From positions 248,001-312,000 of the forward strand of contig CAJTBF010000002.1 in assembly GCA_910574195.1 (NCBI GenBank): 64,000 nucleotides of DNA, given 5' to 3'. Each line of letters opens with the position of its first letter. Within the stretch, counting starts at the first letter, position 1. This DNA is from Lachnospiraceae bacterium (lineage in GTDB: Bacteria > Bacillota > Clostridia > Lachnospirales > Lachnospiraceae). The notes below the pieces were generated by a model that saw only the letters and a list, made by a program, of their open reading frames with translations, did not search any database and was not told the origin of the DNA. A program made the translations under genes and the position numbers. Shown piece after piece: positions 51,233 to 62,569 of the stretch.

Positions 51233-51523
51233 AATTTGCGGAGATGATACGGGATGCCCGGATGGGTATACCTATGGGACAATGAAAGCTATCCACTCGC
51301 CCGAAGAGCATTCAATGCGGGATGTCCGGATGGAATATCTAATCGGATATTAGTGATTCAATTAGTATGCTTGCAGGACGTATTAGGAAAAGTTAAAGGT
51401 CAAAAAGATAATTTTTGTAGGATATATTCTGTGTGTGTATTTGTATATAAAACATAAATATTCAGAAAATTATATACAAAATAATCAATTATAAATTTAT
51501 TTAAAAAAATATAAAAAGATGCA
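51233..51523 (+). other. Intergenic stretch after metG with a short direct repeat
   Basis: No gene is supported. CGGGATGCCCGGATGGGTAT (51248-51267) is repeated almost exactly as CGGGATGTCCGGATGGAATAT about 68 bases later. A 67-codon frame (51254-51457) exists but has no ribosome site or recognisable sequence. From 51400 the DNA becomes very AT-rich. Confidence 0.5.
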
Positions 51524-51552
51524 TTGACAAATGAAGGCGGGTGTGATATTAT
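51524..51552 (+). promoter_or_regulatory. Strong sigma-A-like promoter of an orphan transcription unit
   Basis: TTGACA (51524-51529), 17 bases, then TATTAT (51547-51552), in an AT-rich context. The match to consensus is among the best in the window. It faces a stretch without a conserved gene. Confidence 0.65.
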
Positions 51553-51677
51553 AAATTCAATCCAAAAGAGATCCAAAAGCAGATCTCAGAAAGGAGATAT
51601 CTACAATAGATATATTTGAAAGAGTAATTTTCTATGGTAGATAATTGAAGTATCAGAAAGAAGGAGGTAGAGGTCCC

Positions 51678-51764
51678 GTGGACAGTATAGTAATAGTTAC
51701 AACACAATATGTCAGTGGTATGGTAGATGGAAGTTCCTGTGCAGAAGAGACCTTTACTCATTGA
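51678..51764 (+). CDS. Candidate 28-residue small protein
   Basis: GTG 51678 is preceded by AAGGAGG with 9 bases spacing, a near-perfect ribosome site. The frame encodes a peptide starting MDSIVIVTTQYVSGMVDG with one Cys and an acidic end. It is the best translated candidate in the orphan unit. I do not recognise it; short frames with good ribosome sites also occur by chance in purine-rich DNA. Confidence 0.35.
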   Translation: MDSIVIVTTQYVSGMVDGSSCAEETFTH

Positions 51765-51976
51765 AGAGAAAAGGATTCGGTAAATATAGAATGAAAAGGT
51801 AAAATGATCGGAGAGTTTAGGAAGCCGGATCATAGTCAAAAGATTTCACATCTGCAGACATATTGCATACAGATACCACAGATAATCGAATTTCCTATGA
51901 TGTGTAAAGAAACATGAAAAGGAATAATATTTCATAGAAAGCATAGAAGGTTATAGAAGGAATAATTTAGTAAGGT

Positions 51977-52005
51977 ACCGGAATACTGAAGAACAGTACT
52001 GCGGT
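51977..52005 (+). repeat. Nested hairpin flanked by direct repeats
   Basis: ACCG, GAA, TACTG, loop AAGAA, CAGTA, CTG, CGGT: two stems of 4 and 5 bp with a symmetric 3 by 3 internal loop. The 14-base direct repeat TTATAGAAGGAATA lies 13 bases to the left of it (51951-51964) and 11 bases to the right (52016-52029). Confidence 0.5.
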
Positions 52006-52288
52006 GGGTGAAGAATTATAGAAGGAATAGCTGAGGGATGTGCTTTAGAGTATGAGCGTATTACCAGATACTGATGAAGTGGAAACAGAAACAGAGGCGG
52101 ATGCAGAAAAAGCAGAAAATTTTGGGAAAGGACAAGACAGAAGCCGGGGCAGAAACACAAGTCAGAGAGATGGATTTGGTTAGAAAAGAAAGAAGACTCA
52201 GTATAAAAGTAAAGGTCTTTACAGGAACGAAATCGGAAGATTCCTCCGATTTACAGATAAATAAGATGATAAAATTGAATATAAATTA

Positions 52289-52331
52289 AAAGGCATCCTC
52301 CGCGGAACGGTTTGGATGCCTTTATTTTTTT
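52289..52331 (+). terminator. Rho-independent terminator of the orphan unit
   Basis: AAAGGCATCC and GGATGCCTTT form a perfect 10-bp stem around a 15-base loop, followed by ATTTTTTT. A TTGACA box of the next promoter begins at its end. Confidence 0.9.
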
Positions 52332-52358
52332 GACAATAGGGAATAGTTATGGTAAACT
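52330..52358 (+). promoter_or_regulatory. Putative promoter of the TPR-AAA giant gene
   Basis: TTGACA (52330-52335), 17 bases, then TAAACT (52353-52358). It begins in the T-tract of the preceding terminator and would give a leader of about 220 bases. Confidence 0.5.
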
Positions 52359-52389
52359 ATACTGTACGAAAGAATGCGTTTTGAAAAAG

Positions 52390-52507
52390 TGTTCCGGTTT
52401 ATATTCAGAATCATAGAGATGCAGACCGGAACATGTATCTTCCGTCACCAGGCAGCACAGTGCCTGGTGTGGTGTGAACAGTAACGGAAAATAGTCTGTG
52501 AAGATAC
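52390..52507 (+). promoter_or_regulatory. Structured leader with three helices upstream of the giant gene
   Basis: Stem 1: TGTTCCGGT (52390-52398) with ACCGGAACA (52425-52433). Stem 2: CACCAGGCA (52446-52454) with TGCCTGGTG (52461-52469), loop GCACAG. Outer helix: GTATC plus TTCCGT (52435-52445) with ACGGAA (52484-52489) and GATAC (52503-52507). All pairings are perfect. It matches no riboswitch that I know. Part of it recurs at 59771-59797, so it may be a dispersed intergenic repeat rather than a gene-specific regulator. Confidence 0.5.
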
Positions 52508-52588
52508 GTTTGGAAGAGAATGATAATTTTTGTGCTTGCATAGAATGAATCTACAAAAAAGTACGAATAAAATGATGAGGTGAACGTG

Positions 52589-55500
52589 GTGGATAAGTAC
52601 GAGTATAAGCAGAAAACAGAACAGATGCTTGAGCTTATGGAGGAAGGTGCATATAGTAAAGCCGCGGTGATTGCGGATGCTATAGACTGGAAGCGGGTAC
52701 GTAATACGAAGATGCTGATAGATGTCAGCGAGATTTATGAAAAAAGTGGGGACTATCGGAAGAGTTATGATGTTCTGAACATTGCTTATCACCGTGCGGA
52801 AGGAAGCCGAAAGGTTTTGTATCAGCTTTGCACGCTTGCGCTGAAGACGAAGAATGTGGATGAAGCAATTGATTACTATGATGAATTTGTGCAGATTGCG
52901 CCAAAGGATCCGAACCAGTATATCCTGCGTTATCAGATTCTGCGTGCCCAGAGGGCGCCGGTAGAACAGCAGATTGAGGTATTGGAGGCCTTTAAGAAAG
53001 CGGAATACATTGAAGAATGGGCGTATGAACTGGCAAAGCTGTATCAGGAAGCCGGTATGACGGCGGAGTGTCTGGATGAATGTGATGATTTGATTTTATG
53101 GTTCAGTGAAGGCAAATACGTCTATCAGGCCATGGAACTGAAGATGCGCTATAAACCTCTGACACCTTCTCAGCAGGAAAAGTATGATCACCGGTTTGAC
53201 GGTTTGTCAAATGAAACCGTTGAGATGCCGGATCTGGTGGAATATAAGAACAGCACGGAAGCCGCGGAAGAGGTGGAGGAGAAAGAAGAGCTGAAGAAGG
53301 CAGGAGAGGTTGCGCCAAAAGAAGATGAGATTCCGCTTTCCGCGCCGAAGACACCGGATATAATGAAAAAAATAGGCAATACTATGAAATTGGACGAAGC
53401 GTTGAAGAGCCTGTTGAATTTTGCGCCGGATACCGAGGGAAAAGAAAGAGAGAGAGACTCTTCCGGCGATCCGGTTAGTACGGATGTTGTGTTTGAAGAG
53501 GACAGGAAAAGTTCCTTTGATACTGCGATTGAAGAGATTGAATCGATTGCAGATCTAAATCTGGCGGATACTTTTTCCGGTCAAAAAGGAATAAAGGAAC
53601 TGAAAGTAGATCCGGATCTGGAGGAATTGCGGCCGGAACCGTTACCGGGAGAGGTGGGAGGCGGGGACACCATTATTTTCCAGAAAATCACCCGGGAAGA
53701 TCTGCAAAGGCATAACGAAAGTGCAGAGATTGCCGAGGATCTGGATGAGAACGCAAAAGCTCTTATGGAGGAATTGGACGCGGAAGCGAAAGCACTGATG
53801 GAGGGACTGGATACCGCGGAAGCGAGCAACACTTTGGAAGAAGTGGACGAAGAGAGAGAGGAGAACGGAGAATCCGAAGCGCCAGAGCAGGAAGCGGCTC
53901 CGGAGATAAAAGAAGGAGAAGCGGGAAAGACGGTGCCGGAGAACGGGGCTGAGCGTGAAAATACACAGATTGAAGGACAGATGAGCCTTTTGGATCTTAT
54001 GGCAGGTTTCGAGTCATTGCCGGACGAATCAGATCCTGCTGATGTTTTGGAGGAAGAGATACAGGAAGGGGAGAAAAGTGGGACTCCGGAAGGAGAACCA
54101 GAGCAATTGGGAGAACTGCCGGAAGTGCAGGAAGAAGTCCTGGTGGAACATACTGTGGAAGATGTGGCGGTGGATGAGACGGAGGAGGAGAAACAGGTCC
54201 GTCTGCCGGAAGAAGATGCCGGGGAAGAGGAGAGAATGGATAATAAGAAAAAGGTAGAATCAATTTTGCCCGCGGATATTCAGCGTTTGATTGATGAGAT
54301 TGAAGGCGTCATTCCGGAAGAAACAGAAGAAGATGCTGTGATGTCGGAAGAGATTTCGGAAGAAGAATTGTTTGAGAATATGGGGGAAGTTGCAGAAAGT
54401 CTGCGTGTAGACGAGTCTTCCGAAGTATTTGAAGATTACGATGATGTTCTGGATGAAGAGGAGTATGTAGAAGAACTGCAGGAAGAAGAGGAATCGGAAG
54501 AGACTGCGGAATATGCCGATGATTACGGAAAGGGAGAGGAAAAATATATTAAGAGTTCCGGGGAAGATCATGTAGAGGAAGCAGAATATACCGGCGGCTA
54601 TGAGGAAGCCGGAGAGTACGGGGATGCGTACGAGGAAGACAGTGAGTACGCCGAAGAGTATAAGGAAGTCGGCTCCGAGGAAGAGAGCGGATATCCGGAT
54701 GAATATGAGGAAGGTAGTTACGAAGAGGACGGCGAGTACGAAGGAGAGGCCTACGAAGAAGAGGCCTACGTAGAAGCGGAATATGAAGAAGCCCGTGATG
54801 AAGATACCGGCGAGTATGCAGAGGGAATCTATGAAGAAGCAGGCTACGAAGAAGACGGTTTTGGGGAAACCGGAGAGTATGAGGAAGGAAGCTACGAAGA
54901 AACCGCTTACGAAGAGGAAGGTTCCGCGGAAACCGATGAATATGTGGGAGAGTATGAGGAAGGGACCTACGGGGAAACTGCTTACGAAGAGGACGGCTAC
55001 GAGGAAGTCGGAGACTATGCCGGAGAGTATGAGGAAGAAAGCTACGGAGAAACCGCTTACGAAGAGGACGGCTACGAGGAAGCCGGAGACTATGCCGGAG
55101 AGTATGAGGAAGAAAGCTACGAGGAAACCGACTACGAAGAAGACGGTTATGAAGAAGCCGGAGACTATGCGGATGAGTACGAGGAAGGTTTCTACGAAGA
55201 AGAGGACGAATATGAAGAAGGCATCTACGAAGAAGATGGGGAGTACACCGATGCATATGAGGATGAATATGCATACGAAGAGGGCAGTGAGCTGATTGAA
55301 GAAAGTCTCAAGGAGGAGTTCAGCCCAAACTGGGATGCGGAGGATTTGTATGATGAACGAGAGATGGAGGAGGAGGAAGAAGAGGAAGAAATAGATCTTC
55401 TTTCGGCGACAACACCTCTCAGCAGAAAAGAAACGGCAAAGATGATCGCCACTGGGAAGACGTCTCCGCTGCCTTTGGATGAAATATCAGATGCATTGTC

Positions 55501-56332
55501 CATGTCCGATACAGGATTTATTGTTCACGGAAAATATGATTTGAAGACGCAAAGCGGTATCGGAACCCGGGCGGGCCTTACCGAGGAACAAAAAAAGCTG
55601 TTCTCCTACTTTGTACCGGTTCGTGGTATGAGCGAACAGCTTGTGGATGTATTGGAGCAGGATAAGAACTGTACAAATCGACAGGGAACTTCCAGTATTG
55701 GAAATTTATTGATTATTGGAAATAAGGGGAATGGAAAAACTGTACTTGCAGTGGATGTGGTAAAGGCAATCCAAAAGCAGCGTGGAATCCAGCAGGGAAA
55801 AGTTGCAATTGTGACAGGGGATTCTCTGAATAAGAAGAAAATCAGTGATATTTTCAATAAGCTATATGGTGGTGCGCTGATTATTGAAAAAGCCGGAAAG
55901 ATGAATGAAAAAACAGTTGCCAGAGTGAACAAGGCAATGGAAAGAGACACAGGGGAACTTTTGATTGTATTGGAGGATCAGAGGAAGCCTCTGGACCGGC
56001 TTTTGAGTTCGGACAGAGAGTTCCGCAGAAAGTTTACAAGCCGGTTGGAAGTACCGATTCTGATTAATGATGAATTGGTTACATTTGGACAGGCATACGC
56101 GCAGGAAAACGGATATCAGATTGACGAGATGGGAATTTTGGCATTGTACAGCCGGATTGATACACTCCAGAGAGAAGATCATGCCGTGACGATCGCAGAG
56201 GTAAAAGAGGTTATGGACGAGGCGATGGAGCATTCCCAGAAAGCGTCGGCGAAAAAATTGATGCGTCGTGTTTTCGGAAGAAATACAGATGATTCTGATC
56301 GGATTATTCTGACAGAGAAAGATTTTAACTGA
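52589..56332 (+). CDS. Giant acidic protein: TPR-like helices, Glu/Tyr repeat region, P-loop ATPase-like domain
   Basis: A 1247-residue protein of unknown function. Residues 1-190 are helical repeats of TPR type (SEIYEKSGDYRKSYDVLNIAYHRA, ALKTKNVDEAIDYYDEFVQIAPKDPNQYILR). About residues 210-960 are extremely acidic and low complexity, with Tyr-rich 25-residue repeats. The last 250 residues resemble CbbX/EccA-like AAA modules: SEQLVDVL, Walker A GNKGNGKT (1044-1051), a Walker B position reading ALIIEKAGKM (Glu1100-Lys1101 instead of Asp-Glu), and FRRKFTSRLEVP near the arginine-finger site. TPR plus AAA is the EccA plan of type VII secretion, but no such genes are nearby. There is no signal peptide. 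GTG 52589 is chosen for GAGGTG 6 bases upstream. Confidence 0.85.
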   Translation: MDKYEYKQKTEQMLELMEEGAYSKAAVIADAIDWKRVRNTKMLIDVSEIYEKSGDYRKSYDVLNIAYHRAEGSRKVLYQLCTLALKTKNVDEAIDYYDEFVQIAPKDPNQYILRYQILRAQRAPVEQQIEVLEAFKKAEYIEEWAYELAKLYQEAGMTAECLDECDDLILWFSEGKYVYQAMELKMRYKPLTPSQQEKYDHRFDGLSNETVEMPDLVEYKNSTEAAEEVEEKEELKKAGEVAPKEDEIPLSAPKTPDIMKKIGNTMKLDEALKSLLNFAPDTEGKERERDSSGDPVSTDVVFEEDRKSSFDTAIEEIESIADLNLADTFSGQKGIKELKVDPDLEELRPEPLPGEVGGGDTIIFQKITREDLQRHNESAEIAEDLDENAKALMEELDAEAKALMEGLDTAEASNTLEEVDEEREENGESEAPEQEAAPEIKEGEAGKTVPENGAERENTQIEGQMSLLDLMAGFESLPDESDPADVLEEEIQEGEKSGTPEGEPEQLGELPEVQEEVLVEHTVEDVAVDETEEEKQVRLPEEDAGEEERMDNKKKVESILPADIQRLIDEIEGVIPEETEEDAVMSEEISEEELFENMGEVAESLRVDESSEVFEDYDDVLDEEEYVEELQEEEESEETAEYADDYGKGEEKYIKSSGEDHVEEAEYTGGYEEAGEYGDAYEEDSEYAEEYKEVGSEEESGYPDEYEEGSYEEDGEYEGEAYEEEAYVEAEYEEARDEDTGEYAEGIYEEAGYEEDGFGETGEYEEGSYEETAYEEEGSAETDEYVGEYEEGTYGETAYEEDGYEEVGDYAGEYEEESYGETAYEEDGYEEAGDYAGEYEEESYEETDYEEDGYEEAGDYADEYEEGFYEEEDEYEEGIYEEDGEYTDAYEDEYAYEEGSELIEESLKEEFSPNWDAEDLYDEREMEEEEEEEEIDLLSATTPLSRKETAKMIATGKTSPLPLDEISDALSMSDTGFIVHGKYDLKTQSGIGTRAGLTEEQKKLFSYFVPVRGMSEQLVDVLEQDKNCTNRQGTSSIGNLLIIGNKGNGKTVLAVDVVKAIQKQRGIQQGKVAIVTGDSLNKKKISDIFNKLYGGALIIEKAGKMNEKTVARVNKAMERDTGELLIVLEDQRKPLDRLLSSDREFRRKFTSRLEVPILINDELVTFGQAYAQENGYQIDEMGILALYSRIDTLQREDHAVTIAEVKEVMDEAMEHSQKASAKKLMRRVFGRNTDDSDRIILTEKDFN
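54890..55264 (+). repeat. Five 75-bp tandem repeats in the giant gene
   Basis: Units begin at 54890, 54965, 55040, 55115 and 55190 (period 75 bases, 25 codons) and encode versions of SYGETAYEEDGYEEAGDYAGEYEEE. Units 2 and 3 are almost identical at the DNA level, pointing to recent duplication; units 1 and 5 are more diverged. Similar but irregular Glu/Tyr repeats extend upstream to about 54590. Confidence 0.92.
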
Positions 56333-56754: not shown

Positions 56755-57819
56755 ATGAGACGTATGAAAAAAGTAGTATCGGTCGTGTGTTGTATCTGTC
56801 TGATCCTGGGGCTGGCGGGTTGTGCCTCTTCGGGAGGAGGGGGCACCGTAGGGCACAAAAGGATCATTCGGATTTCCCATGCACAATCCGAATCCCATCC
56901 GGAGCATCTTGGCCTGCTTGCATTCAAAGAGTACGTGGAGGAAAATCTGGGAGATAAGTATGAAGTACAGATATTCCCAAACGAGATTCTGGGAGCAGCG
57001 CAGAGGGCCATTGAACTGACACAGACGGGCGCCATTGATTTTGTTGTGGCAGGAACGGCCAACTTGGAGACATTTGCGGATATTTATGAGATTTTCAGTA
57101 TGCCGTATTTGTTTGATTCTGTAGAGGCATATCATGAAACGATGATGGACACGGATTATATGGAACAGATCTATGAGTCCACAGACGAAGCCGGTTTTCG
57201 TGTGATGACCTGGTACAATGCAGGTACAAGAAGTTTTTATGCAAAGACACCGATTGCAACACCGGAGGATTTGAAAGGAAAGAAAATCCGGGTGCAGCAG
57301 TCTCCCGCAAGTGTGGCAATGATGCAGGCGTTTGGGGCGGCAGCCTCTCCCATGAGTTTTGGCGAGGTTTATACGGCGATTCAGCAGGGGGTAATCGATG
57401 GGGCGGAAAATAACGAACTGGCGCTGACGAATAATAAGCATGGAGAAGTTGCCAAATATTATGCTTACAACAATCATCAGATGGTTCCGGACATGTTGAT
57501 TGCGAATTTAAAGTTTTTGAATGGTCTTTCGGACGAGGAACGGGAGATTTTTGTGGAGGCTGCGAGAATTTCCACAGAAGTGGAGATGGAAAACTGGGAC
57601 GATCAGGTAGCGGAAGCAAAACGAGTTGCAGAAGAAGATATGGGTGTGGAATTCACGGAAGTAGATATTGAGGCGTTTAAGGAAAAGGTACTGCCGCTGC
57701 ATGAGGAAATGTTAAAGGAAAATCCGAAAATCCAGGAGTTCTATGATCATATTCAGGAGATCAATCAGAATGTAGAGAAAACATCCGACCAATCAGAAAA
57801 GGAGGCGGAAGAGAAATGA
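56755..57819 (+). CDS. dctP: TRAP transporter substrate-binding lipoprotein DctP
   Basis: A 354-residue extracytoplasmic binding protein. The N-terminus is a lipoprotein signal (CLILGLAGCASS, lipobox Cys about residue 23), and the DctP fold shows RISHAQSESHPEHLG, YEVQIFPNEILGAAQRAIELTQTGAIDFV, the invariant-arginine region GTRSFYAKTPIATPEDLKGKKIRV, and SFGEVYTAIQQGVIDGAENN. Substrates of this family are usually organic acids, often sugar acids; the cre-like site fits carbon control. ATG 56755 or 56764 could start. It overlaps dctQ by 4 bases. Confidence 0.95.
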   Translation: MRRMKKVVSVVCCICLILGLAGCASSGGGGTVGHKRIIRISHAQSESHPEHLGLLAFKEYVEENLGDKYEVQIFPNEILGAAQRAIELTQTGAIDFVVAGTANLETFADIYEIFSMPYLFDSVEAYHETMMDTDYMEQIYESTDEAGFRVMTWYNAGTRSFYAKTPIATPEDLKGKKIRVQQSPASVAMMQAFGAAASPMSFGEVYTAIQQGVIDGAENNELALTNNKHGEVAKYYAYNNHQMVPDMLIANLKFLNGLSDEEREIFVEAARISTEVEMENWDDQVAEAKRVAEEDMGVEFTEVDIEAFKEKVLPLHEEMLKENPKIQEFYDHIQEINQNVEKTSDQSEKEAEEK

Positions 57820-58322
57820 GTACATTGAAGAAACTTCGAAAGGGAATGGATACGGTATTAAGTACGGCATGCTTTATTATTTTTGCGTTTATGGTATGCG
57901 TGGGAACTTATCAGATTGTAGTGCGCTATTTTTTCAATAGTCCGAGTACGGTATCCGAGGAACTTTTAACATATAGCTTTACCTGGATGGCTCTTCTTGC
58001 TTCGGCTTATGTATTTGGGAAACGGGATCATATGCGGATGGGATTTATTGCAGATAAATTGACGGGAAAAAAGAAAATGGTAATGGAAATTGCAATTGAA
58101 CTTTTGATTCTTGCGTTTTCTGTGATTGTGTTGATTTTTGGGGGATTCAGTATCATGAATCTTACAATGACGCAGGTGACGGCTTCTCTGGGGATTCCGA
58201 TGGGGACAGTATATACGGTGGTACCGTTGACGGGAGTACTGGTTGTCGTATATGCAATTCTGAATATTGTGGATTTGTGCCGGGGAACCGAAGGACAAAA
58301 GCAAGAGTGTGCAGAAGAATAA
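57816..58322 (+). CDS. dctQ: TRAP transporter small membrane subunit DctQ
   Basis: A 168-residue protein with four membrane helices: FIIFAFMVCVGTYQIVVRYFFNSPSTVSEELLTYSFTWMALLASAYVFGKRDHMRMGFI is the characteristic first half (VRYFF and FGKRDHMRM). It joins with DctM in the membrane. The ATGA overlap with dctP and the following dctM show a single operon. Confidence 0.94.
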   Translation: MSTLKKLRKGMDTVLSTACFIIFAFMVCVGTYQIVVRYFFNSPSTVSEELLTYSFTWMALLASAYVFGKRDHMRMGFIADKLTGKKKMVMEIAIELLILAFSVIVLIFGGFSIMNLTMTQVTASLGIPMGTVYTVVPLTGVLVVVYAILNIVDLCRGTEGQKQECAEE

Positions 58323-58346
58323 AGGACGAGAGGAGGAAGTGTTTTT

Positions 58347-59654
58347 ATGGATATTGCAGTATTATCGGGTATGATTATTTTAGTGATGCTGGTGGTTTTG
58401 CTGGTTGCCGGAGTTCCCATTGCGGTGGCGCTGGGAGTGTCCTCGATCTGCGCGATTCTGCCGATTCTGAATTTTGAAGCAACCGTTGTGACAGGAGCAC
58501 AGAGAATTTTTTCGGGGATTTCTATTTTTTCGTTGCTTGCTATTCCTTTTTTTATCCTTGCCGGAAATATTATGAACAAAGGGGGAATTGCGGTACGGTT
58601 GATTAATCTGGCGAAGCTTGTGACCGGACGGACGCCGGGGGCGCTGGCACAGACCAATGTGGTGGCCAATATGCTGTTTGGCTCGATCTCCGGTTCCGGT
58701 ACGGCGGCAGCTTCTGCAATGGGATCGATTATCGGGCCGATCGAAAAAGAAGAGGGCTATGATCCTGATTTTTCGGCGGCGGCCAATATTGCGACGGCGC
58801 CGACGGGACTTCTGATTCCACCCAGCAATGTGATGATCACCTTTTCTCTGGTCAGCGGCGGCACCTCTGTGGCGGCGTTGTTCATGGCGGGATACATTCC
58901 GGGATTTTTATGGGGGCTGGCCTGTATGCTGGTGATCTATGTGTTGGCGAAAAAGAACGGCTATCGCAGTACAAGTAAATTTACGGCAAAGGAAGCCGTG
59001 CAGGTACTGCTGCAGGCTTTGCCTTGTCTGCTGCTGATTGTGATTGTAATCGGTGGAATTATTTTCGGAATTTTTACGGCGACAGAAGGTTCGGTTGTAG
59101 CCGTAGTGTATAGCCTGATTCTGTCATTATTTTTCTACAAATCCATTAAATGGAAGGATCTTCCGCAGCTCTTTAAAGAAAGTGCGGAGATGACAGGAAT
59201 CATTATTTTTCTGATCGGTGTATCCAGTATTATGTCATGGGTGATGGCATTCACCGGAATTCCGACCGCCATCTCCAACGGGTTGTTAGGATTGACAAAT
59301 AATAAAATTATTATTTTGCTGATCATCAACGTGCTGCTTTTGGTTGTGGGAACTTTTATGGATATGACACCGGCGTGTCTGATTTTTACGCCGATTTTCC
59401 TGCCGGTATGTACGGCATTGGGAATGAATACAATCCATTTTGGAATTATGATGATCTTCAATCTTTGTATCGGAACAATTACGCCACCGGTAGGAACAAC
59501 GTTGTTTGTTGGGGTCCGTGTGGGAAATGTTAAAATCGAAACCGTGTTTAAGCAGCTTCTGATTTACTTTGCAGCAATTTTTGTTGTGCTGCTGCTTGTG
59601 ACATATATTCCGCAGATCTCGCTGTGGCTGCCGGGGCTGATGGGATATGTATAA
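58347..59654 (+). CDS. dctM: TRAP transporter large membrane subunit DctM
   Basis: A 435-residue, about 12-helix transporter: VAGVPIAVALGVSSICAIL, ILAGNIMNKGGIAVRLINLAKLVTGRTPGALAQTNVVANMLFGSISGSGTAAASAMGSIIGP, IPPSNVMITFSLVSGGTSVAALFMAGYIPGF, and the C-terminal DMTPACLIFTPIFLPV and TPPVGTTLFVGVRVG motifs, all typical of DctM. It drives sodium- or proton-coupled uptake. GAGGAGGAAG lies upstream. It is the last chromosomal-type gene before the mobile element. Confidence 0.95.
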   Translation: MDIAVLSGMIILVMLVVLLVAGVPIAVALGVSSICAILPILNFEATVVTGAQRIFSGISIFSLLAIPFFILAGNIMNKGGIAVRLINLAKLVTGRTPGALAQTNVVANMLFGSISGSGTAAASAMGSIIGPIEKEEGYDPDFSAAANIATAPTGLLIPPSNVMITFSLVSGGTSVAALFMAGYIPGFLWGLACMLVIYVLAKKNGYRSTSKFTAKEAVQVLLQALPCLLLIVIVIGGIIFGIFTATEGSVVAVVYSLILSLFFYKSIKWKDLPQLFKESAEMTGIIIFLIGVSSIMSWVMAFTGIPTAISNGLLGLTNNKIIILLIINVLLLVVGTFMDMTPACLIFTPIFLPVCTALGMNTIHFGIMMIFNLCIGTITPPVGTTLFVGVRVGNVKIETVFKQLLIYFAAIFVVLLLVTYIPQISLWLPGLMGYV

Positions 59655-60793: not shown

Positions 60794-60816
60794 TAGCCAC
60801 CTTGACAAAGTGGCTA
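60794..60816 (+). promoter_or_regulatory. Inverted repeat just upstream of the element parA
   Basis: TAGCCAC and GTGGCTA form a 7-bp stem with a 9-base loop, 28 bases before the ATG. TTTACATAGCC occurs both here (60787) and at 60719. Autoregulatory binding by ParA/ParB or a translational hairpin is possible. Confidence 0.35.
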
Positions 60817-60843
60817 AATCTATGCGAAAGGAGGACGCACCCT

Positions 60844-61671
60844 ATGTCAAATTGCAAAGTAATCGCTTTAACCAACCAGAAAGGCGGCGTTGGCAAGACC
60901 ACCACGGCGGTCAATCTGGGCGTGGCTCTGGCACAGCAGGGCAAAAAAGTTCTGCTCATTGATGCCGATGCACAGGCAAATTTAACCATGTCGCTCGGTT
61001 ACAGCCGACCAGACGACTTGCCCGACACACTCTCCACCATCATGCAGGACATCATTGATGATAAGCCCGTCGATGTTTCCAGAAGCATCCTGCACCATGA
61101 CGAGGGCGTTGACCTGCTCCCGTCCAACATTGAACTGTCGGGACTGGAAGTAAGGCTGATAAACGCCATAAGCCGTGAAAGCGTATTGAAAACCTGCATC
61201 AATGAAGTGAAAAAGAATTACAATACTGTCCTCATTGACTGTATGCCGAGCTTGGGTATGCTGACAATCAATGCACTTGCGGCTGCTGACAGCGTGGTTA
61301 TCCCGACACAGCCCCATTATCTTTCTGCCAAAGGCTTAGAGCTGTTGCTTCGCTCCGTGTTTAAAGTGAAACGGCAGATTAACCCGCACCTGCGGATTGA
61401 CGGCATCCTTATGACGATGGTAATGCCACGCACGAACATCTCTAAGGAAATCACGGCAACGGTAAAAAGTGCCTACGGGCAGAGAATCAAGGTATTCGAT
61501 GCACAGATACCCCACTCCATCCGTGCTGTGGAAGCCACCGCAGAGGGAAAGAGCATTTTTGCCTACGACAAGGGCGGCAAGGTAGCCGCCGCTTACGAGC
61601 AGTTCGGAAAGGAGGTGGCAGAGCTTGGCGAGAAGCAGAGAAAGCAAAATCGAGCTGACCGCATACGATGA
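60844..61671 (+). CDS. ParA-type partition ATPase of the mobile element
   Basis: A 275-residue ParA: ALTNQKGGVGKTTTAVNLGVALAQQGKKVLLIDADAQANLTMSLG, then VLIDCMPSLGMLTINALAAADSVVIPTQPHYLSAKGLELLL, and QIPHSIRAVEATAEGKSIFAYDKGGKVAAAYEQF. It has AAAGGAGG before the ATG and overlaps its parB partner by 47 bases. It differs clearly from the chromosomal ParA at 31770-32558. GC content is higher than in the flanking chromosome. It should help maintain the excised circular element. Confidence 0.94.
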   Translation: MSNCKVIALTNQKGGVGKTTTAVNLGVALAQQGKKVLLIDADAQANLTMSLGYSRPDDLPDTLSTIMQDIIDDKPVDVSRSILHHDEGVDLLPSNIELSGLEVRLINAISRESVLKTCINEVKKNYNTVLIDCMPSLGMLTINALAAADSVVIPTQPHYLSAKGLELLLRSVFKVKRQINPHLRIDGILMTMVMPRTNISKEITATVKSAYGQRIKVFDAQIPHSIRAVEATAEGKSIFAYDKGGKVAAAYEQFGKEVAELGEKQRKQNRADRIR

Positions 61672-62569
61672 CCTCTTTGAAACGGACGAGAGCCGTGCGG
61701 AAGCGAATCTAAGCAAAATAAGGGAAATCCCGATTGCGGAGATTGACGAGTTCCCAGACCACCCGTTCAAGGTCTTAATGGACGAGGACATGGAGCAGCT
61801 TGTGGACAGCGTAAGGCGGAGCGGCGTGATGACCCCTGCCACTGTCCGCCAGAAAGAGGATGGGCGGTATGAGCTTATCAGCGGTCACAGGAGGAAAAAG
61901 GCTTGCGAGATTGCAGGGCTTGAAACGCTCAAATGCGAAGTTAAGGAGCTGACCCGTGACGAAGCGATTATCGTCATGGTTGAGAGTAATCTCCAAAGGA
62001 CTACTATCTTGCCGAGTGAGAAAGCCTTTGCGTATAAGATGCGGCTTGAAGCGATGAAGCGACAAGGACAGCGTACAGATTTAACTTGTTCCCCAGTGGG
62101 TAACAAGTTGCAAGGCGTAAAATCATCAGATGAACTTGCCGAGAAAGTCGGGGAAAGTAAAAATCAGATTTTCCGCTATATCCGTCTGACCGAGCTTGTA
62201 CCCGAAATCCTGCAAATGGTTGATGAACGCCAAATTGCTTTCCGCCCTGCGGTGGAAATCTCCTATTTGTCCGAGGAACAGCAATATACGCTTTTAGAAG
62301 CGATGGGCTACAACGATGCGACGCCCTCTCTTGCACAGGCTATCAAGATGAAAAAGTTCATGCAGGAGGGAAAGCTCACGGATGAGGTTATCCAGAGCAT
62401 CATGCAGGAGGAAAAGCCAAACCAGAAAGAAAAACCCGCCTTTAAGGACGAGCGGATAACCAAGCTCATACCGAAATCCATTCCCAGAGGGCAGGAAACG
62501 GATTTTGTCGTAAAGGCGTTGGAGTTTTACAACCGCCACTTACAGCGGAGCAAGGCTCACGAGAGGTAA
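61625..62569 (+). CDS. ParB/Spo0J-type partition protein of the mobile element
   Basis: A 314-residue ParB: IREIPIAEIDEFPDHPFKVLMDEDMEQLVDSVRRSGVMTPATVRQKEDGRYELISGHRRKKACEIAGLETLKCEV contains the GHRR CTPase box and the ParB N-terminal fold; VESNLQRTTILPSEKAFAYKM and a helix-turn-helix region (SDELAEKVGESKNQIFRYIRLTELV) follow. The start is TTG 61625, inside parA, with AAGGAGGTGG upstream. Pairs like this are standard modules of Tn1549-like elements. Confidence 0.93.
   Translation: MARSRESKIELTAYDDLFETDESRAEANLSKIREIPIAEIDEFPDHPFKVLMDEDMEQLVDSVRRSGVMTPATVRQKEDGRYELISGHRRKKACEIAGLETLKCEVKELTRDEAIIVMVESNLQRTTILPSEKAFAYKMRLEAMKRQGQRTDLTCSPVGNKLQGVKSSDELAEKVGESKNQIFRYIRLTELVPEILQMVDERQIAFRPAVEISYLSEEQQYTLLEAMGYNDATPSLAQAIKMKKFMQEGKLTDEVIQSIMQEEKPNQKEKPAFKDERITKLIPKSIPRGQETDFVVKALEFYNRHLQRSKAHER

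Follow-up and report, generated by a model that had tools for sequence, protein, structure and literature searches.

A single-copy Lachnospiraceae protein with a TPR domain, a long acidic linker and a degenerate CbbX-like AAA domain, often encoded next to glgB

The AAA+ proteins CbbX, SpoVK and EccA belong to a narrow clade of enzyme-dedicated chaperones, whose clients we take to be Rubisco, MurG and ESX proteins, respectively. CbbX is the red-type Rubisco activase (PDB entries 3syk, 3syl and 3zuh), and EccA, the chaperone of ESX (type VII) secretion, joins an N-terminal TPR domain to a CbbX-like AAA domain at the C-terminus. In the part of a preprint that was available (PMC10659427), characterised members of this clade are argued to be single-target chaperones with varied N-terminal recruiting domains, and SpoVK, an active ATPase with a short N-terminal domain, is reported to act on the glycosyltransferase MurG in sporulation. 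Here we describe a protein encoded at positions 52589..56332 (+ strand) of a 64,000-nucleotide stretch of Lachnospiraceae DNA (GCA_910574195.1, contig CAJTBF010000002.1, positions 248,001 to 312,000), referred to below as the window. It consists of a TPR domain, a long acidic linker and a pseudo-AAA domain, and we read it, with a probability of about 0.4, as a cytosolic, non-hydrolysing scaffold or dedicated chaperone-like partner, the likeliest client of which would be the 1,4-alpha-glucan branching enzyme GlgB wherever the gene stands first in a close pair with glgB.

The gene was delineated from the list of open reading frames (ORFs) and a genome search. The frame is intact from a GTG at 52589 to a stop codon ending at 56332, encodes 1247 residues and is single-copy in its own genome; the GTG lies at the same place in all 12 relatives whose upstream regions were printed. 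Pfam and NCBIfam searches returned no model for the whole protein, and a literature search returned no paper that we recognised as describing it. Homologues were collected as 77 genus-level sequences (L001 repeats the window) and 117 from 294 genomes drawn evenly across the order, referred to as the order draw; alignments A3 and A4 contain 49 and 48 chosen rows of these 194. The 76 nearer relatives come from species genomes of Mediterraneibacter, Faecalicatena, Schaedlerella, Hespellia, [Ruminococcus] torques and others, with a C-terminal identity of 84–94% in 73, 70% in L068 and 35–36% in L076 and L077. The N-terminal profile has one match each in 118 of the 121 genomes that belong to the window's family, taken to be Lachnospiraceae on the strength of the named relatives; a broader profile recovers two of the three missing genomes (G023 and G256), and G160 is still without a match. 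The remaining 173 genomes of the order yielded four weak matches (E values of 2.8e-6 to 8.6e-4, 61–113 positions covered), which are probably generic TPR. Within this sample the protein is near-universal, single-copy and lineage-restricted in Lachnospiraceae. Many assemblies are fragmented, and masked letters make the lengths of L178 (2474) and L195 (2285) untrustworthy.

Residues 968–1247 (55490..56329) form the pseudo-AAA domain, which was recognised from its predicted fold and from sequence and fold matches. It is predicted as a P-loop AAA fold with a pLDDT of 88.2 and a pTM of 0.82; CbbX is the best match by sequence and, among the matches listed, the nearest by fold. A preliminary description made from the window's letters alone had called the combination of parts unlike any known family. 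The C-terminal fold can, however, be placed in the CbbX/SpoVK/EccA clade, although it fails the active-site marks of that clade. The alignment of homologues locates a Walker A motif (GNKGNGKT, residues 1044–1051, 55718..55741) and a degenerate Walker B motif (IIEKAG, residues 1098–1103, 55880..55897), in agreement with the EccA/CbbX-like P-loop bearing Glu-Lys at Walker B that had been described. All 77 genus-level homologues carry Glu-Lys, which is therefore not a sequencing slip. Neither an Asp at the first Walker B position, the mark of an active AAA+ protein, nor the sensor-1 GY signature, a feature taken from the available part of PMC10659427, occurs in any of 192 homologues (two gapped at each site). 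ATP hydrolysis by this domain is unlikely on these sequence grounds.

The models of CbbX (TIGR02880), SpoVK (TIGR02881) and EccA (TIGR03922) give 33.6, 24.4 and 24.0 bits against curated cut-offs of 459.25, 422.95 and 466.65, so that where the preliminary description had raised a strong match to a characterised family, what was found is weak likeness far below every cut-off. The SpoVK model is matched weakly by 47 of the 49 aligned C-terminal domains. Compared with CbbX, the protein lacks the Walker B Asp-Glu and the GY sensor-1, often lacks Walker A and is set apart by its TPR domain and acidic arm; compared with SpoVK, as characterised in the available part of PMC10659427, it has dead motifs, a TPR domain and a tether. 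The window's genome encodes two further frames with CbbX-like domains, one of 963 residues with two such domains (G000:C18:4434-5939) and one of 594 residues with one (G000:C2:108570-109214).

Binding of nucleotide without normal hydrolysis, as first proposed, may apply within the clade of the window, and would allow the protein to act as an ATP- or nucleotide-sensing regulator in which binding switches the contact with a partner. Walker A GK[TS] is intact in the window and kept in 75 of the 77 genus-level homologues, and 74 of these 77 domains carry, in the Arg-finger region, an Asn (four residues before the first Arg finger) together with an Arg; the window has Asp for this Asn. Among order-draw homologues with residues at the site, however, GK[TS] is kept in 52 of 107 and gone in 55, and the Asn and Arg of the finger region occur in just eight of 111 domains. 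Nucleotide sensing is therefore not the common function of the family, and as an account of the protein we hold it improbable.

The TPR domain (residues 1–205, 52589..53203) is predicted by AlphaFold2 (AF2) to contain 12 helices between residues 3 and 200, arranged as six TPR-like hairpins with a pLDDT of 95.6, which bears out the TPR-like helices noted at first. The tandem helical hairpins that mark the TPR superfamily are present in this model, and TPR structures match by both sequence and fold, whereas Pfam gave TPR matches below threshold only. MamA and other TPR proteins have this solenoid fold in common with the N-terminus, but the repeat is a generic one. TPR gene clusters are said, in the part of PMC3971600 that was available, to mark a gut-restricted group of Lachnospiraceae. 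The combination of TPR and CbbX-like AAA domains is that of EccA, and the protein might accordingly be a type VII secretion chaperone; 38 of the 49 domains match the EccA model weakly and EccA1 was matched in the PDB search with an E value of 5.3e-12. Against this stand the low EccA score and the dead ATPase motifs, which together with the long acidic linker set the protein apart from EccA. No secretion genes were recognised by eye among the conserved neighbours, no search having been aimed at them, and we regard an EccA-type role as very remote. EccA is absent from the N-terminal matches listed, by sequence or by fold (the best 50 of 1675 by fold), and from the fold matches listed for the C-terminal domain.

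The acidic linker (residues 206–962, 53204..55474) has 37.5% Asp/Glu, 50 Tyr and a net charge of -236, in keeping with the roughly 750 strongly acidic residues first described, and is assumed to be disordered. Its length is variable in relatives, being 346–907 residues with a median of 596 in 69 genus-level linkers and 63–1989 with a median of 442.5 in 114 from the order draw, the longest of which includes masked letters. Acidity is conserved: the net charge is below -0.1 per residue in all 69 genus-level and 107 of the 114 order-draw linkers. Tyr richness is not a family trait, with medians of 2.4% and 1.6% and a fall to about 0 in some members; on this ground a Tyr-rich arm for phosphorylation was rejected as a family trait, as was a glycogenin-like primer.

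A motif scan of the linkers revealed a conserved motif at residues 460–476 (QIEGQMSLLDLMAGFES, 53966..54016) with the core Q[ILVM]xGQ[MIL][STDN][ILMF], after which an acidic pair position and W-E usually come. It is found in 63 of 117 order-draw and 60 of 77 genus-level linkers, against a mean of 0.00 in composition-shuffled linkers, and in many members a second, weaker copy lies about 18 residues ahead of the first. In the window the motif contains QMSLL, which we take to resemble a clamp-binding peptide and count for a hub of DNA replication or repair, perhaps linked to the sliding clamp or the clamp loader. RuvB is among the fold matches, Orc1/Cdc6 and HolA models are matched weakly by 18 and nine of the 49 C-terminal domains, and dnaX-ybaB-recR, named by eye, adjoins the gene in one clade. 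CbbX nevertheless scores better by fold and by sequence, housekeeping genes of this type are common neighbours of anything, and a sliding-clamp motif was rejected, its strict form being found in just two of 117 and two of 77 linkers; such a hub appears decidedly unlikely.

GlgB is not a homologue but the conserved downstream partner gene product and the best supported candidate client. Conservation of neighbours, to which the preliminary description had pointed, is seen among relatives and fails at the window: glgB is the first conserved neighbour. Among the 76 nearer relatives, 67 have it downstream on the strand of the gene, and in the order draw it comes immediately after the gene in 58 of 117 loci, but it does not adjoin the gene in the window. 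Neither this frequent adjacency nor the near-universal occurrence in the family is visible from the window alone. GlgB scores above NCBIfam cut-offs in both examples tested, including the distant L076. From the stop codon of the protein gene to the first ATG of glgB the median gap is 29 nucleotides, with 46 of 58 gaps at 50 nucleotides or less, and in the 58 adjacent loci 17 families fill the place upstream and 17 the place after glgB. The linkage is old and persists in three large clades; isolated exceptions to it are the window and L159. Many genomes of the family encode two GlgB-like proteins, with short frames of about 640–700 residues and long frames of about 740–920, and it is the short type that adjoins the protein gene. 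Downstream of the place of glgB, 44 nearer relatives (e.g. L005:12931-15054) encode a membrane protein of about 700–725 residues, by eye an ion-translocating pyrophosphatase. Apart from GlgB and MetG, all neighbours are named by eye.

Several observations weigh against a scaffold with GlgB as its client. Of the 58 upstream places, 41 belong to just two families, and two families likewise take up 36 of the 58 positions after glgB; adjacency changes four times on a tree of 118 N-termini and is a matter of few old events, not of 58 independent ones. The gene is without glgB adjacency in 57 of these 118, including the window, where glgB lies about 287 kb away on the same contig, and three (L180, L210 and L212) are of unknown state since their contigs end. 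glgB is present in 273 of the 294 order genomes, also in families without the protein, and GlgB therefore does not need it. The linker motif is absent from 54 of 117 and 17 of 77 linkers, some of the ORFs being truncated. The C-terminal profile covers just about 65–145 residues in several deep lineages and has no match in two of 117 sequences (L195, with masked letters, and L212, cut by the contig end), and the Orc1/Cdc6 and HolA matches given above count here as well. A non-hydrolysing hub with clients unrelated to glycogen, for which the glgB pairing would be a chance legacy of an inherited operon, bringing shared expression and nothing more, is a serious if tentative possibility. It is favoured by the half or so of the family without the pairing, by the occurrence of glgB without the protein outside the family and by the other upstream neighbours, recR in 20 loci and rsmA in 31, of other lineages. 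It does not readily account for a pair that is tight and kept in three clades while most other neighbours vary. For part of the family, the adjacency supports a functional link without proving it.

The preferred reading, a cytosolic scaffold or docking partner with GlgB as candidate client, best fits a relative of the clade in which catalysis has been lost while the domain itself stays conserved, along with a TPR domain for recruitment and a tether that bears a motif. The TPR domain and the pseudo-AAA domain would serve as two conserved protein-binding ends, held apart by the long acidic tether, on which the short linear motif would provide a third docking site. The ATPase module would descend from the enzyme-dedicated AAA+ chaperone clade, having lost the engine and kept the docking face, and the protein may hold GlgB in place, position it or regulate it, or else organise the synthesis of glycogen. 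More ambitiously, it could be an unrecognised, Lachnospiraceae-wide, ATP-free tethering hub that works with GlgB to build or regulate glycogen bodies and is linked, in some lineages of the family, to the structured RNA of about 0.8 kb described below; this we consider unlikely. A large single-copy protein in nearly every sampled genome of a major gut family would in any case be of interest, having no Pfam or NCBIfam model. If the reading is true, it provides a clear example of a dedicated AAA+ chaperone surviving without its motor as a scaffold, and the tight pairing with glgB offers a direct, testable entry into glycogen storage by gut commensals.

By eye, the gene has its own promoter at 52330..52358 (+ strand; TTGACA at 52330, TAAACT at 52353), with a -35 element that shares bases with the T-run of the intrinsic terminator before it; the terminator plus TTGAC can be read in ten of the 12 printed relatives. 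The 5' leader (52366..52588) had been described as structured. A strong fold exists in the window (52370–52595, z = -3.58), but the 11-mers shared with relatives, compared without a formal alignment, fall for the most part within the promoter and ribosome-binding site, and the leader is not obviously common to relatives.

The orphan unit noted ahead of the gene proved to be a conserved structured RNA gene (51524..52331, + strand) which, by eye, has its own promoter (51524–51552) and terminator (52289–52331); the RNA starts at about 51557 and its core spans 51701–51868. Parts of 51440–52340 were matched upstream of the gene in 55 of the 67 nearer relatives compared, mostly at 68–82% identity and with some segments short. 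For the 5' part, 54 sequences have a common structure of 34 pairs, in which 98.7% of cells pair. Changes on both sides occur in 13 pairs, compared with a mean of 5.6 on shuffling (none of 500 reaches 13) and with 3–6 in slid controls; the slid comparison leans towards the structure, which was derived from the same alignment. An apparent ORF of 28 residues (51678–51764) lies inside the RNA gene, and its apparent counterparts, of 26–32 residues, are seen in 54 sequences, the window included. Its variability by codon position is 0.12, 0.126 and 0.068 (40 distinct sequences), with no third-position bias; because the variation is not coding-like and base pairs covary, the MDSIVSV..QYVSG stretch is read as RNA and the small peptide was rejected.

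The window has no Rfam match at the gathering threshold, and its upstream region gave just a chance microRNA match (E 0.5). The RNA has one copy in its own genome, and a covariance model, R1, finds it at E 0.001 or better in at least 35 of 200 family genomes, stricter filters having been used. In 19 of the 35, the window's included, it precedes the protein gene on that gene's strand by less than 1 kb, and in five by 1.7–4.8 kb (for G577 this distance is that of the weaker of two matches), giving 24 within 5 kb; in three it is on the same contig at a distance of 17.7–169 kb and in eight on another contig. The RNA gene is conserved, structured and undescribed, and provides beside the protein gene a second, independent and testable unknown. 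Further downstream in the window, 56755–59654 and 60802–62569 encode, by eye and with no search made, a TRAP-type transporter followed by ParA- and ParB-like proteins, which may mark the border of a mobile element.
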